Part shown: piece by piece, positions 27,721-34,500 of the stretch
Position numbering within the stretch: position 1 is the first letter of the stretch
How the letters are laid out: the number at the start of each line of letters is the position of its first letter
Source: Tetmemena sp. SeJ-2015
Lineage: Eukaryota; Ciliophora; Spirotrichea; Sporadotrichida; Oxytrichidae
Assembly (NCBI GenBank): GCA_027382625.1
Contig: JAJKFJ010021934.1
Span: 62,001-126,000, forward strand
Reading direction: 5' to 3'
DNA length: 64,000 nucleotides
The notes under the pieces: model-generated
What the model saw: the letters and a program-made list of their open reading frames with translations, nothing else
Told to the model about the DNA's origin: nothing
Database searches by the model: none
Program-made: the position numbers and the translations under genes

Positions 27721-28150
27721 ATGGGGTTAGTGTATTGGGAAAATTTGGAAGAGTCCAAGGACAAAATCAACTGCAAGAAATGTGTAGTGCCTCTCTGCTA
27801 CGAAGCTGATATCATAGATAAAAATTACTACTGCTCCAATGGAGTTGCCTACTTCATAAGCAAGGTGTAAGCATTCTAGCAAAGAAATAATTGCATTTTC
27901 AGAATAAATGTGGACCTCGGTTAAGAATATCTGGTGGACTTTACGACCGGAAAGCACGAAATAAGAGACATATTTTGCATATGTTGCATGACCAAGATCG
28001 GCTGGAAATATGTAAGCCAAACTGCTTTAAGATAGAAGGAATAATTTTCCTCTATAGATGAAAGCGTACGACTAAATCAATCTACACAAAGAGCAGAAGT
28101 TTGTTCTGGATCTCAGCAAAATAAATTTTCAAAGAGAGCTTAGTATCTGA
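27721..28150 (+). CDS. Yippee-like zinc-binding protein
   Basis: A short N-terminus with CKKC (the first zinc pair) is followed by GVAYFISKV, a 36-bp GT..AG intron, NVDLGQEYLVDFTTGKHEIRD and IFCICCMTKIGWKY, which holds the second Cys pair. This is the Yippee/YPEL fold. After a short insert near 28010-28065 the end reads INLHKEQKFVLDLSKI to TGA 28148-28150. YPEL proteins are nuclear or centrosome-associated, and one is a subunit of the GID/CTLH ubiquitin ligase; the role here is not shown by sequence. Confidence 0.85.
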
Positions 28151-28201
28151 TTTTAAATGCACTCTTTCACTTTTCTCTCTTCTTATTATTCGCAATGCTT
28201 T

Positions 28202-29087
28202 GTTAATGAAAAACACCAAGCATAAACACATGGACTTACTCAGCTTCAGGGAGGCTACTCTCCTCATCTATGAAAGAGAAGGCATGTTAGGTTACTACAG
28301 AGGCTTTACTCCATCCATGATTAAAAACACGATGAATGCAGGAACTTACTTCAGCACTTTTTAAATTAGAAAGTGTCATTTATAAATTTAATGAAACACT
28401 CTCTATTATATCAAACTCATGATGCAGAAAACAAATGTATACCTTTGACTTATCATTTATAAGCGTGTAAATGTGATGAGCGAAAATATGATAAATTTAT
28501 GGTCCTCAGCTAGTGCTAGAGCAATCTAGGCTGTGCTAAGTAATCCAGTCATCGTAATTAAAACCAGAATGGAGGTGCTCGGCTTCTAAGAGTACTCCAG
28601 CTTTGCAGATGCTTGCATGAAGATATATAAGAACGAAGGTCCATAAGGTTTCTTTACTGGTTTGAAAATTTCCTTGATCCGAGATGTGCCCTTCTCAGGA
28701 ATTTTTTATCCGATTTACGAGCTTAGCAAAACTTTTTACTCTAATCTGCTTAACCACACTGAAAATGATCGGTATCGCGCACTGAATCTCGCTCTAATTT
28801 CATCTCTTTCATCTATCACAGCTAATCTGTGGAGCTGCATTCTAACCCACCCATTAGATATCATTAGGACTAGAGTGTTTTTCCAATTTTACAATAAAGA
28901 TAAAAATTAACACTATCAGACGATAACATAGGCTGTGCTTAAAATATATGAGTACGATGGCATGATAGGATATTTTAGAGGACTCACTCCTAGGCTAATG
29001 AGGAAAGGATTGGGAAATATATTAGCTTGGGGCATCTTCGAGTTTCTAGTGGACAAGAGGAAAAGGTCATCGATGAAGTTTGAGTGA
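28202..29087 (+). CDS. Mitochondrial carrier (SLC25), MDS 2 onward
   Basis: Opens with pointer GTTAATGAAAA (28202-28212), shared with 8347-8357 on the minus strand. Continues REATLLIYEREGMLGYYRGFTPS (repeat 1), then NPVIVIKTRMEV..GFFTGLKISLIRDVPFSG (repeat 2) and HPLDIIRTRVFFQ..GYFRGLTPRLMRKG (repeat 3), with TGA at 29085-29087. An IES lies at about 28364-28490. Without the distant MDS the protein lacks helix 1 and the first PxxxxK signature. With it, the three-repeat carrier is complete. The transported substrate is not evident. Confidence 0.88.
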
Positions 29088-29549
29088 GCCCGATAATTAG
29101 TATCAAAGAAGAATGAGGAGGTGAATCCTGTGTATTTTGTGTTTATAATTGCCTTTCTATACTTTGAAATCAGGAATATAATTGTAAGTTATATGAAGTA
29201 TCGAATTAAAATAAACTTAATTAAGCGAAGAGGCGCGAGAATAGGTAACATAATTTTTAAAGGGAGTTACTTCAATTATTTTCTTGTTTACTTGCTTTGA
29301 TACTTTATAAGTATTTATGTGACCCTCTTTTTCTTATTTTAATTTTTTACGAATTTATTTTCTGAAACTCTCACTTACAGTTCTAATTCTTTGTACTAAA
29401 TATGAACTTATTATGAACTATTCTGTTTTATTGTAGATTTGTATCTATATTATACGCATAAGCTTATTTGGCAGCATTAAATTAACTTTAAAGTATTAAA
29501 TATTAATACTGCTTCATTATCTTATTGGATAAATATTGAAGTTTGATAT
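29088..29549. other. AT-rich region downstream of the carrier
   Basis: Mostly A/T. The carrier frame stays open for about 60 codons after its TGA with a hydrophobic stretch, but no support for coding was found. No other feature seen. Confidence 0.4.
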
Positions 29550-29753
29550 TAATAGGACTGCATTCAAGATGTGACAATTTTATTTGTTGTTAGCGATTTC
29601 GCTGAGAGACACTTGGCTGAGGCTCAGAATAGATTGCATAGAAAATACGGACCCGGCATGGTCGACCTCCACAGATCCCTTAGAAAACAAACTAAGAGAG
29701 TCAAAGCCATTAGACTTGGACAGTCAACCTTAAAAATCAATTAACCTTAATGA
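29550..29753 (+). CDS. Orphan coding segment, unrecognised
   Basis: A frame ending at TGA 29751-29753 reads VVSDFAERHLAEAQNRLHRK then YGPGMVDLHRSLRKQTK. Its composition is that of a real protein, richer in G+C than flanking DNA, but it has no ATG and an in-frame TGA just upstream. It looks like the last MDS of a gene whose other parts are elsewhere. Confidence 0.45.
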
Positions 29754-29816
29754 AAGAAATGTATTGATTTATCCATATGAATGGTGCTTTTCTTAGCTTA
29801 TTTTGATATGAATTAA

Positions 29817-30029
29817 TATTTTGAGTGAAGTCCTCTGGCGACCCAACTGGCTCTGATGGCGATGAGACTGTAGATACTCCAGGCGGTGAACTTGTTATCA
29901 CTGACCCACTTACTTGCCTCGTTGGCCTCGCCGCAGGTATGCAAATGGACACTGCCACCTTCGGATCTTGCACCACATGTGTTCTCGACCAAGTCGACAT
30001 CATCAAGCAAACCACCAAGGATTTCTCAA
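29817..30029 (+). CDS. Scrambled secreted-protein gene, MDS 2
   Basis: Begins with pointer TATTTTGAGT (29817-29826), which also ends MDS 1 at 30653-30662. Coding from 29831 is Gly/Asp/Thr-rich and then carries LTCLVGLAAG and GSCTTCVLDQVD with three Cys. It ends in pointer TTTCTCAA (30022-30029). The first bases complete an intron whose donor lies in MDS 1. Confidence 0.88.
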
Positions 30030-30046
30030 CTTATCATTTTATAGTT
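30022..30046. other. IES, 25 bp, pointer TTTCTCAA
   Basis: TTTCTCAA at 30022-30029 and 30047-30054. A conventional IES between MDS 2 and MDS 3 of the scrambled gene. Confidence 0.88.
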
Positions 30047-30190
30047 TTTCTCAAACATCCTCAATAACTACAAGTTCTTCACCTCCCTTTTCTACAACCC
30101 TACTAAGCTTCTCAAGAGTGAAGTCGCTTGCTACGAGTAAGTTTACCTTTTCTGCAATCGTTACTTCTTTCGATTTCTCTTATTTATAGA
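30047..30190 (+). CDS. Scrambled secreted-protein gene, MDS 3
   Basis: Codes for ILNNYKFFTSLFYNPTK and EVACYE, then an intron donor GTAAGT at 30137. The segment ends in pointer TTATAGA (30184-30190), which lies at the intron's 3' end and recurs at the start of MDS 4. Confidence 0.88.
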
Positions 30191-30535
30191 CTATCTAACA
30201 CGAGTTAGATTTAGGTTTATTATTATTATAACATCCAAATTATATTTTATACTGCTTCTAATCAACTTTTGGGTTACGAGATTCTCAATTCCCATTTGTT
30301 AAATTCATCTCATTGATCGATCAAAGATCATAATATCTTTAATATAGAGTGTTCGTTTTGCTAATGTCTTCTGAAATGAAATATTAAATATAGACTGAAT
30401 TCAACGACTTAAACTAAAGCATGATGTATTTAATAATATATTTTATATGAGAATTATGAGTTTAGTTGGGAATTCTTGGTAATAAAGCTACTAAGATGCA
30501 TTTAATTATAATAAATATAAAAATAGATTTGAAAA

Positions 30536-30662
30536 ATGAAAGCTTTCCTTGCTCTGGCAGTCACTGCCTTCGTAGCTACATCCGTTTCCGTAAGTACCTC
30601 TCTCATCAAGTCTCTATTTCAGCGCTAAGTGCCTTAAACTTAATACCCATACTATTTTGAGT
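30536..30662 (+). CDS. Scrambled secreted-protein gene, MDS 1 (signal peptide)
   Basis: ATG 30536 opens an 18-codon signal peptide (MKAFLALAVTAFVATSVS), followed by donor GTAAGT at 30590. The segment ends at pointer TATTTTGAGT (30653-30662). Its continuation, MDS 2, lies upstream at 29817, so MDS 1 is physically third in the locus. Joining makes an intron of about 77 bp ending GTGAAG. Confidence 0.85.
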
Positions 30663-31111
30663 TTCAGGAGCAACCAAAATTCTTAACAATTACTCTAGGC
30701 TGTTAGCTAAATATACAAAAAAATTGCAATCTATTAATTATAATTTGCTTATATCTTATAAATTCATGTAAACTTTTATTATGAAATATGGTAAATATAT
30801 TTAAAACCATCTATAAATTCTTCTAAAAAGATCAGATATTGGGAAATAAAAAATTTGAATTATAAAAATAAATTCTCTAAATCTTTAGTACTCTAAAACA
30901 ATATGCTAGCTTCTTATTTTAAAATGAATAAATGAATGGTGGGTTTAACAATTAATTAATTTTGTGAAATCTCATTTAAATTTTTTATATGTTTTTAGAG
31001 TATTTTGATATTGTGTTGTAATTTTTGGAGGAATGCATGTGTGTATAAAATTAGGTATGTAAAATATAAAGGGAGGAAGCATTGTTCTTTCTAGAATGAA
31101 GGAACTATAGC
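30663..31111. other. AT-rich spacer within the scrambled locus
   Basis: Lies between MDS 1 and inverted MDS 5. Very AT-rich, no coding frame seen. Expected to be eliminated. Confidence 0.6.
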
Positions 31112-31287
31112 TCATTAGTTGACGTTCTAGTCAGTGGCGAACTGAATGACCTTGACCAGGGACTGGCATCCATCATAGTAGTTGGGGGGTTGGGCTGTCA
31201 AGTCAGTCTGGGCTGCCTTAAGAAGAGGCTTGGCGTCGGTCAAGAAAGCAGTCACACCTCTAACTCCGAGTTCAGCAACGAAGGAAG
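31112..31287 (-). CDS. Scrambled secreted-protein gene, MDS 5 (inverted, C-terminus)
   Basis: Read on the minus strand it begins with pointer CTTCCTTCGTT (31277-31287), continues AELGVRGVTAFLTDAKP, NYYDGCQSLVKVIQF and ends at TGA 31112-31114. Orientation is opposite to the other four segments, so assembly needs an inversion. Confidence 0.88.
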
Positions 31288-31373
31288 AAAAACATTATAA
31301 ATCAATCAATAATGATTATATTGTATAATGTAAAGTGATTAATTCATCTCATTGAACCACAAGCTAACTTTAC

Positions 31374-31446
31374 TTATAGATACTGCAAGGGTGACGGTCT
31401 CCTCGATCAACTCTCCAACCTCCTCAGTGTTAAGACTTCCTTCGTT
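31374..31446 (+). CDS. Scrambled secreted-protein gene, MDS 4
   Basis: Begins with pointer TTATAGA (31374-31380), codes YCKGDGLLDQLSNLLSVKT and ends with pointer CTTCCTTCGTT (31436-31446), which matches MDS 5 in inverted orientation. With the other MDSs the exons total 54+199+82+67+165 = 567 nt, exactly 189 codons with stop: a secreted protein of 188 residues with about seven Cys and no recognised family. Confidence 0.88.
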
Positions 31447-31518: not shown

Positions 31519-34500
31519 ATGAATACCAGTCCCTCTCTGGAGCGCTCACCCACTACCAAGCAGAGAAATGTCATCAAGACCAATTGAACCAGACTCCAAA
31601 TCATTTTGAACGCCACTCAGTTCAATAACTTCACTCACCAAGAAGAGGAATTATCTTTACACAAAACCAAGAAAAACGTAAGTGCTAAGATTTTATATAT
31701 CTGAGTCATAATTTTCATTTAGAATGCGACTTTTGTAAACGCTGATAAACCAAGGTCACTTTAAAATAATATCATAAAGAATTTATTATATTAGTTTAGA
31801 AGGATGATGTCGACTCTTGATTAACTTTTATTTTCTTATTGATTAAACCTCAGTATCGAAATATAATGGACTCTCTAATCCTAGTCAGATGTATGGAGGG
31901 ACTCAGAAACTGAGTGGAACTCAAGCCATCAGCTAGTAACTTAATAAAAGTTTAGGTGCCACTACCTAACTTGGAATCCCTGACTCAGCAAGTTTATTAA
32001 CTTACGATTTCAACAACAGTTTTGGAATAAAGCGACCAAAGACTGGCAAGAAACCAAGGCCAATTGAGGAGATGCAGAGATTCATTAGTAAGTCAAAATA
32101 CACATCTTCTTACAATTAGCAAAATCTTCTTTAGAGAGCTCTTAATAAGTTATGATGACAAAGATCAAGAGAGAAATTGAAGAGAGGCAAGGTCACAGTC
32201 CGGAGAAGAAGCGTCAGCGAAGAGAAAATCTCACCAAGTATAAAACTTAGAGCCCTGTCAAAGGAATCGCTCAAAGATAGAACAAAAATAAAACTCCCAT
32301 CAATAGCCTCCTCTTAGATAGATCATCTAATATTAATTACTTATTGTAAATCTCTCAACTTCAGCACTAATAAAGCTACGAATTATGAGAACGCATCTCC
32401 AGAAATGGCTAGCATGAGGTGGGGCGCCATGAACGATAGCTGTCCTGAGTTTTACAACTAGGATAGATTTTTAATTATTTTAAAGCACAAGCAGATCTTA
32501 GCCCAAAATACTTTCTTAGAGAAAGCGAGCAGGGTCAATAACCAGCAAAGCAATAACTTATTTATTCAAGACAACAAGCACAGTACTTCACAGATCAGAA
32601 TTCAAAGTGCATTTATTTTTTAAGCAGTGGGAGGAAGACCATCTAACTTGACCGAGGAAAAGCAAAAGTAAGGCTATCAGACAAATGCCTCGTGTCTATA
32701 AATCCTTATTCTTCCCTTGAGAGCACTTAGTTCCCAGTAAGCACTCACCAAACTTCATTCAACAATACTAAATCAATGAGTCTATATTTTAAAGTCAAGA
32801 GACTAAGTTCAGAACCAAGTTGTCTGCAAATAGAATTAACTATGAAAATTCTAAGTCAAAATAAAATGATCATTAATATTTGCTATGTTAATGTCTAGTC
32901 TTCTCAAAATACCACCCAAGCGGATTTGTTCACTTAGCAAAGTTAAGCACTTTACTAGGAGTAAGCAAACTACCAGCTCAATACGAATCCGTCTGACTAC
33001 AGACTAAACACGAATCAGTCTAGGGTTTTAAAAAGCACTTATGATTCTCCTATAAAAGTTGGAAGCAGGACAGATCAAATTGCAAACTACTCTAACTTAA
33101 TTGCTTCTTATTAATTTTACTATACTCTAAGATCTATGAGCTTTTCAAAGATAGTTGTTATTCAACTAAAAAGAGTTCTGCCACTGTGAAAATAGAGTAA
33201 GCTAAATTTATATTGTTTTACACTCTATAGCATGAGAAACTCAGATAGGATTCCCACTCTTAGTGAGAGTGAAGTCTTGCGTATTTTCCAGGCTAGAAAC
33301 TAAGATCTCTGTCTCAATTTCTTTGACACCTAATTTCAAAGGTTCAAGGACTACTGCTAGAAGGCTTGCACCAATAGAAAAATCAAGTTTAGCGATGTAA
33401 GATTGGTCTCATTTTATTGGGTTAATTATATGTAGCTTGGAATGGGGATTCAAACTGCAATTGAGTTGAGTCAAATATTGGTGGTCAATGAAAATATAGC
33501 AAGCATAGATCTCAAGAAGAATAACCTTACTGACGAAGGAGCCAAGATATTGGTAAAAGCTATAGCTAAATCAAGATCTGTAGTCCATCTCGATCTCTCT
33601 TCAAACTCAATCACTCACAAAGGAGCAAAGAAGATCTTTGGATATCTTCTCACAAACTGCTCCTTAGTATCTTTGAAATTAGGTTCAATCGATGGAGTGA
33701 ATAAGAATAAAGTTGGCTAGAAGGGTGTTGTGCATCTAGTAGATTTACTATAATGCTCTAAGTTCATTCAATTCCTTGATCTAAGAAGTAACATACTTTC
33801 AGATAATGGAATCGTCACACTTTGCGATGCTCTTCACCAAAATAAGATCCTCATAAGCTTAAACCTAGCCAGCAATGAGATAACTTCTTTCGGCATGGAG
33901 AAACTCAAAGATGCCCTTTTTAATTACCACTGAAATTAAGGAAGTTGATCTCTCTTCAAACCCACTTGGAAATCAAGGAATCGAGTATTGTACATATATT
34001 ACACTATTTTAGTATTTAGCAAAGTTCATCGCCAACTCTGGAAGCAAGTTAGAGAGACTAAACATATCAGAGTGCAAATTTTAATCCCCAGGCTCAATCA
34101 TCTTATTTCAAGCTGTAAAGAGAAGTTAGAGTGTCAGATATCTCTTTCTCGATAAGAACGATATAAAATCTCGAAGCTCTTCTTATCTGGTCTCTGGAAT
34201 CTATCACGGCCTGGTTCAAATAAGTATGATAAGATGCAATCTAGGCGATGAAGAAGGAATAGCAATTGGAGAAGCTTTGGGTCGATGCAAAAATATGAAG
34301 ACAGTTTACCTCTAATACAACAGCATCAGTGACGAGGCAGCTAAATCTATTGCTGAGGCCCTCACTAAACCTCAAGTCAGTTTGGAGTATCTAGACTTGA
34401 GCCATAATAAGATCAACGATGCTGGAGGAGAGCTGATTGCCTCTTCTCTTACTATAAACTGCTCTTTATCGCGCCTAAATATGAAGAGAAACAATCTCAA

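Follow-up and report, generated by a model that had tools for sequence, protein, structure and literature searches.

Based on the germline sequence and on four distant relatives of the encoded protein, we propose that this locus holds a scrambled gene of at least six segments, which lie in the germline order 2-3-4-1-(6 inverted)-5 and encode a product of 234 residues, a model that we consider rather probable as a whole. The scrambling itself is very probably real. The six segments give one open frame, in a coding order that differs from the germline order, and the inversion of segment 6 is independent of the disputed joins at the front of the gene. A first-pass annotation of the same DNA had proposed five segments (germline order 2-3-1-(5 inverted)-4) coding for a shorter protein. 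In the numbering used here its segments 2 to 5 become segments 3 to 6, and a conserved block that it missed becomes segment 2.

The window (the whole 64-kb stretch of DNA that was analysed) corresponds to C2939:62001-126000 in its own assembly (146 Mb, 5213 contigs), in which the scrambled locus was located once, as a germline copy, among the best-scoring candidates of the search. No somatic copy of the gene was found in that assembly, so that the joins between its segments stand as proposals.

The gene model and its segments

In the preferred model the gene would be composed of the following parts, given in window coordinates:

30536..30707, plus strand: segment 1, with the start codon and the signal-peptide exon 30536-30589 (MKAFLALAVTAFVATSVS); the 5' end of the segment is provisional
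Segment 1, 3' part: intron 1, whose GTAAG starts at 30590 and whose TCTAG ends at 30698, followed by GC and by the pointer TGTTAGC at 30701-30707
29588..29725, plus strand: segment 2 (missed in the first pass), with pointer TGTTAGC at 29588-29594, coding sequence SDFAERHLAEAQNRLHRKYGPGMVDLHRSLRKQTKRVKAIRLGQ at 29592-29723 and pointer AGTC at 29722-29725
29726..29828, plus strand: eliminated stretch of 103 bases between segments 2 and 3 (conventional order), containing the TATTTTGAGT copy of the first pass at 29817-29826
29829..30029, plus strand: segment 3 (formerly 2), starting with AGTC and ending with TTTCTCAA; placed by the relatives
30030..30046, plus strand: eliminated stretch of 17 bases between segments 3 and 4; three of the four relatives cross this join
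30047..30190, plus strand: segment 4 (formerly 3), with the exon end at 30136, intron 2 from 30137 and the pointer TTATAGA at its end
31374..31446, plus strand: segment 5 (formerly 4), with TTATAGA at its start and CTTCCTTCGTT at its end
31112..31287, minus strand: segment 6 (formerly 5), inverted, from CTTCCTTCGTT at 31277-31287 to the stop codon TGA at 31112-31114 (the coordinates run to the stop codon)

During development of the somatic nucleus, these segments would be joined at TGTTAGC, AGTC, TTTCTCAA, TTATAGA and the inverted CTTCCTTCGTT, and on the joined chromosome the start and stop codons would delimit 867 bases, made up of two introns of 109 and 53 nt and a 705-nt frame for 234 residues. 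The comparison of sequences supports that the block lies directly before segment 3, that segment 3 runs into segment 4 and that intron 2 starts where two of the relatives stop. The signal-peptide piece would be segment 1 of the same chain, joined to segment 2 via TGTTAGC, and segments 5 and 6 would complete the gene.

The four repeat pairs that had been proposed as pointers in the five-segment model are all present in the window where they had been placed (segment numbers of that model):

29817-29826 and 30653-30662: TATTTTGAGT, between segments 1 and 2
30022-30029 and 30047-30054: TTTCTCAA, between segments 2 and 3
30184-30190 and 31374-31380: TTATAGA, between segments 3 and 4
31436-31446 (plus strand) and 31277-31287 (minus strand): CTTCCTTCGTT, between segments 4 and 5, inverted

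In the order of that model, the exons (54, 281 and 232 nt) do sum to 567 nt from ATG to TGA, that is, 188 residues and the stop codon, and its two introns (77 and 53 nt) both have GT..AG ends.

Short repeats are found at all five junctions of the six-segment model. In order to estimate how often such repeats arise by chance, the flanks were shuffled with dinucleotides kept, using flank widths chosen by the analyst. Among the repeats shuffled, only the inverted 11-mer CTTCCTTCGTT is by itself clearly beyond chance (0.15% of 2000 shuffles), which bears out the earlier proposal of a scrambled gene with an inverted last segment. The 8-base repeat TTTCTCAA was reached in 6% of 3000 shuffles, and the 10-base repeat TATTTTGAGT in 18% of 3000 (11% if an in-frame AG acceptor is required). 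The 7-base repeat TTATAGA was reached in 68% of 2000 shuffles, and is therefore no evidence by itself. Based on these results, the inversion is firm and the other joins need evidence from proteins.

The conserved block and the front of the gene

With the 188-residue product of the five-segment model as query, one relative was found (E<=0.001, among 188 candidates), whose N-terminus matches window DNA upstream of the first coordinate of that model, and not the signal peptide. A search with this upstream piece plus segment 3 gave four proteins (P0001 to P0004) at E<=10 among 12 candidates, the first relative being again one of them. In all four, a block (DLHRSL..RLGQ) is fused to an acidic linker and to the sequence of segment 3, and in P0002 and P0004, the two relatives that reach that far, it is preceded by EAQNRLH.KYGPG. 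The corresponding DNA (29592-29723) falls outside the range 29817-31446 of the five-segment model. Using tblastn with code 6, residues 1-45 of P0002 were placed at 29589-29723 and residues 1-47 of P0004 at 29589-29729, in both cases adjoining their segment 3 matches, and the pairs of pieces reached E values of 1e-29 and 4e-32, respectively (window searched, with the database size set to that of the assembly). The identity of the block to P0001-P0004 is 17/22, 30/44, 18/22 and 29/44, and that of the rest 57/91, 44/91, 53/94 and 39/61; since the block is at least as conserved as the rest, it does not have the look of a decaying remnant. A codon model for which the remainder of the window served as training set gives it a coding score of 14 bits, and a single copy of it was found in the 146-Mb assembly.

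The join of the block to segment 3 at AGTC (29722/29829) is in frame and yields RLGQSSGDPTGSDG, identical to the junction in P0003, which none of the other 23 of the 24 listed in-frame joins of 3-4 bp between the two flanks does. A longer repeat of 6 bp exists between these flanks, out of frame, and counts against the model. The AGTC junction would be a conventional, unscrambled one, removing 103 bases and one pointer copy. The following join, at TTTCTCAA, was already part of the first-pass annotation and is backed by three of the four relatives (P0001, P0002 and P0003), which read across it; P0004 ends earlier.

Up to and including the point where conservation begins, the open frame that holds the block (29547-29753) lacks an ATG, although one is found further inside (GPG-M-VDL); the full block therefore needs a front segment. 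The signal exon at 30536-30589 is unlikely to be a chance occurrence: under strict criteria, set after seeing the exon, the 64 kb hold two such sequences, of which it is one, where 0.1 would be expected. The codon model is indifferent to it (2.7 bits) and scores the opposite strand higher (11.4 bits at 30545-30607, minus). A search of the assembly for the first 33 bases of the exon, allowing 3 mismatches, found no further copy. The downstream flank of the signal exon and the flank of the block have TGTTAGC in common (30701/29588). A join at this repeat gives a 109-nt intron (GTAAG..TCTAG), followed in frame by AVSDFAERHL.., the whole being one open frame of 705 nt. Ten repeats of 7-8 bases exist between these flanks (TGTTAGC and nine others), all of them allowing some in-frame YAG, and TGTTAGC is the only one that lies no more than 125 nt from the donor and 30 nt from the block. 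With these nearness limits, which were set after seeing the repeat, a 7-bp repeat with an in-frame YAG appears in 12% of shuffles, and without them in 68%. Taken together, we put the linkage of the signal exon to the block at about two in three. Two other joins between the signal exon and the block were rejected: a 33-nt intron (ending in TTTCAG), which would require another repeat and the inclusion of a long stretch whose codon score is negative, and a join at TTGTTAG|C, which on reading the sequence is out of phase with the signal exon.

The five-segment model takes the signal exon directly to 29817-30029 at TATTTTGAGT, leaving a protein of 188 residues that lacks the block. It has a 10-bp repeat and an open frame on its side, as well as its 77-nt intron: the intron length classes given for Oxytricha and Stylonychia in PMC5014332 have means of about 33-36, 48-51 and 78-81 nt, which 77 nt fits better than do the 109 nt of our intron 1, a length that exceeds the usual classes. 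Its acceptor TGAAG, however, matches the TATAG consensus (PMC5014332) at 3/5 positions, with A before AG, whereas TCTAG matches at 4/5, and the 11% of shuffles that reach such a repeat with an in-frame AG compare with a real join that has no in-frame YAG. The direct passage from the signal-peptide piece to segment 3 conflicts with 4/4 relatives, which have the block before that segment, and the model would leave without function a block that is conserved and found once. Given that the relatives place 29588-29725, and not the signal-peptide piece, before segment 3, the count of five segments, their order and the 188-residue product are not supported, and we regard this model as highly improbable.

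A different doubt concerns the signal exon itself. The Met with which P0002 and P0004 begin falls on the very first position of the block, where the window has Val, and P0001 and P0003 start at the Met inside the block that is also present in the window (..GPG-M-VDLHRS). Translation may start at the block-start or at the inner Met; the inner-Met starts fit an upstream intron but may also be the choice of the gene caller. The signal-peptide piece is in none of the four relatives. The conserved gene might thus consist of the block and segments 3 to 6, starting at an ATG of another front segment or at the inner Met, with the signal exon belonging to another gene or being unused, and with only segments 5 and 6 out of order. 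Such an arrangement, which also gains from the TGTTAGC pointer not being beyond chance, seems to us unlikely, given that no convincing ATG segment lies nearby (ATGAGCGA occurs four times in the window, the nearest copy at 28476, inside a mitochondrial carrier frame, and two starts with donor-like sequence at 27-35 kb are unconvincing by eye), that an inner-Met start leaves the conserved EAQNRLH.KYGPG untranslated, and that chance hardly accounts for the signal exon.

It is also conceivable that both products are made, a single signal segment leading into the block in one of them (234 residues) and straight into segment 3 in the other (188 residues), in a kind of exon skipping on DNA. Both joins have repeats and both are in frame, and the phenomenon is known (PMC4684698), but neither repeat is beyond chance and we hold this to be the least probable of the readings considered. 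If true, it would mean that the secreted protein has a second version, in which the basic block is missing and which carries cysteines not present in the relatives.

Intron 2 and the 3' segments

In the six-segment model, intron 2 is placed by the ends of two relatives. P0002 ends with ..GYE and P0003 with ..AYE. At this residue the window reads GAG TAA G, and an intron starting there with GTAAG would stop the frame under the standard code; P0002 and P0003 would accordingly derive from DNA contigs with the same intron 2. For the first-pass join at TTATAGA, this backs the intron, with its donor in GAGTAAG, but no relative reads into the segment that follows (segment 5). The TATAG that ends intron 2 falls inside the pointer TTATAGA, and intron ends on or near pointers are described for this ciliate group in PMC9797194. 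The two copies of TTATAGA lie in longer near-repeats at 30180-30190 and 31370-31380 (TTATTTATAGA and TTACTTATAGA), both resembling 3' splice sites, so that the pointer falls together with the splice site.

The evidence for segments 5 and 6 consists of the 11-base inverted repeat, the open frame and a coding score that is positive in the right frame (best-frame values and maximal segments were used here); where segment 5 lies, the codon model gives a higher score to the opposite strand (13.4 bits). A search for relatives of these C-terminal segments gave one candidate and no match at E<=10, which says little, because, with no Met in the exon, a gene caller would at best have predicted a short fragment. 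Near the end of the product, TAG and TAA are each read once as Gln, in frame before the TGA stop.

The product and the comparison with known systems

The 234-residue product would consist of a signal peptide, a basic conserved block, an acidic linker and a domain with six cysteines, and, as judged from its sequence, is most likely small, secreted and disulfide-bearing, with a pro-region. The putative signal peptide is a hydrophobic start of 18 residues, recognised by hydropathy only; it would be linked to the rest as proposed above, and none of the relatives shows it. The block has 11 Lys/Arg and 4 Asp/Glu in 44 residues. In the alignment, the first two cysteines are common to the relatives; Cys114 is another residue in all four, and Cys156 in both of the relatives that reach it.

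The protein had been described as belonging to no recognised family, which holds for Pfam and has to be amended in that the relatives P0001-P0004 exist. No Pfam match was found for the 188-residue product (E<=1), for the 213-residue join aligned with P0001-P0004 (alignment A1, E<=10) or for the 234-residue product (E<=0.01), and the family is absent from Pfam. The 234-residue product had no match among PDB sequences at E<=1, and the best hit of the A1 profile against the PDB (E 2.1, one of three rows at E<=10) was taken as chance. Pattern matches were obtained in viral contigs (37 stretches) and in prokaryote contigs (74), and none was confirmed as a relative. AlphaFold2 on P0002 with its three relatives gave a poor model with a mean pLDDT of 38, and these comparisons led to no named family or fold.

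The relatives come from short contigs (986-1385 bases; sources lgn and ena) and share with the gene the basic block, the acidic linker and the first two cysteines, as well as, in P0002 and P0003, the position of intron 2, inferred from where they end. They differ in Cys114 and Cys156, and no signal peptide is seen in them.

Compared with the scrambled genes of hypotrichs (Oxytricha trifallax, Tetmemena), the gene has the same out-of-order and inverted segments, a short repeat at each proposed junction, eliminated stretches, the TGA stop and an intron end coinciding with a pointer. It differs in nothing of kind, being small (six segments) and coding for a protein without a Pfam match. It is thus an ordinary scrambled gene of the hypotrich type and adds one more example to a known kind; in Tetmemena, 13.6% of the gene loci are scrambled (PMC9797194). 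That either of two front joins could lead into the same segments downstream resembles the alternative processing with shared segments in Oxytricha, analysed at 69 loci (PMC4684698), the difference being that here both joins are proposed from germline sequence. As this case shows, germline sequence and distant relatives can largely rebuild a scrambled gene. Such a rebuilding can also err: a join that passes over a conserved segment had an open frame, GT..AG ends and a 10-base repeat all the same.

TAA and TAG are read as Gln and TGA is the stop, as in the hypotrich nuclear code. A search of the assembly for a C4A4 telomere repeat pattern gave 67 matches, of which 9 stand at the very start (base 1) of a contig; as the pattern reads the same backwards, the control of this search is void. 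The TGA-only stop and the C4A4 matches fit a hypotrich-type ciliate germline. C4A4 repeats stand at contig starts (base 1 of, for example, C298, C586 and C672), and a longer array lies at C2828:3805-4156; these are possibly telomere-bearing elements or stray somatic contigs.

An Rfam scan of the 64-kb window at gathering thresholds gave no match. Directly upstream of the scrambled gene lies a mitochondrial carrier gene on the plus strand (28062-28394 and 28452-29087, with Pfam Mito_carr in both parts), whose two pieces are separated by 57 bases, probably an intron or a small eliminated stretch. Additionally, a leucine-rich-repeat gene is found at 33190-33933 on the plus strand (Pfam LRR_6), which by eye runs on in another frame from about 33930 to about 35100; this change of frame at about 33930 is as expected from an eliminated stretch or an intron.
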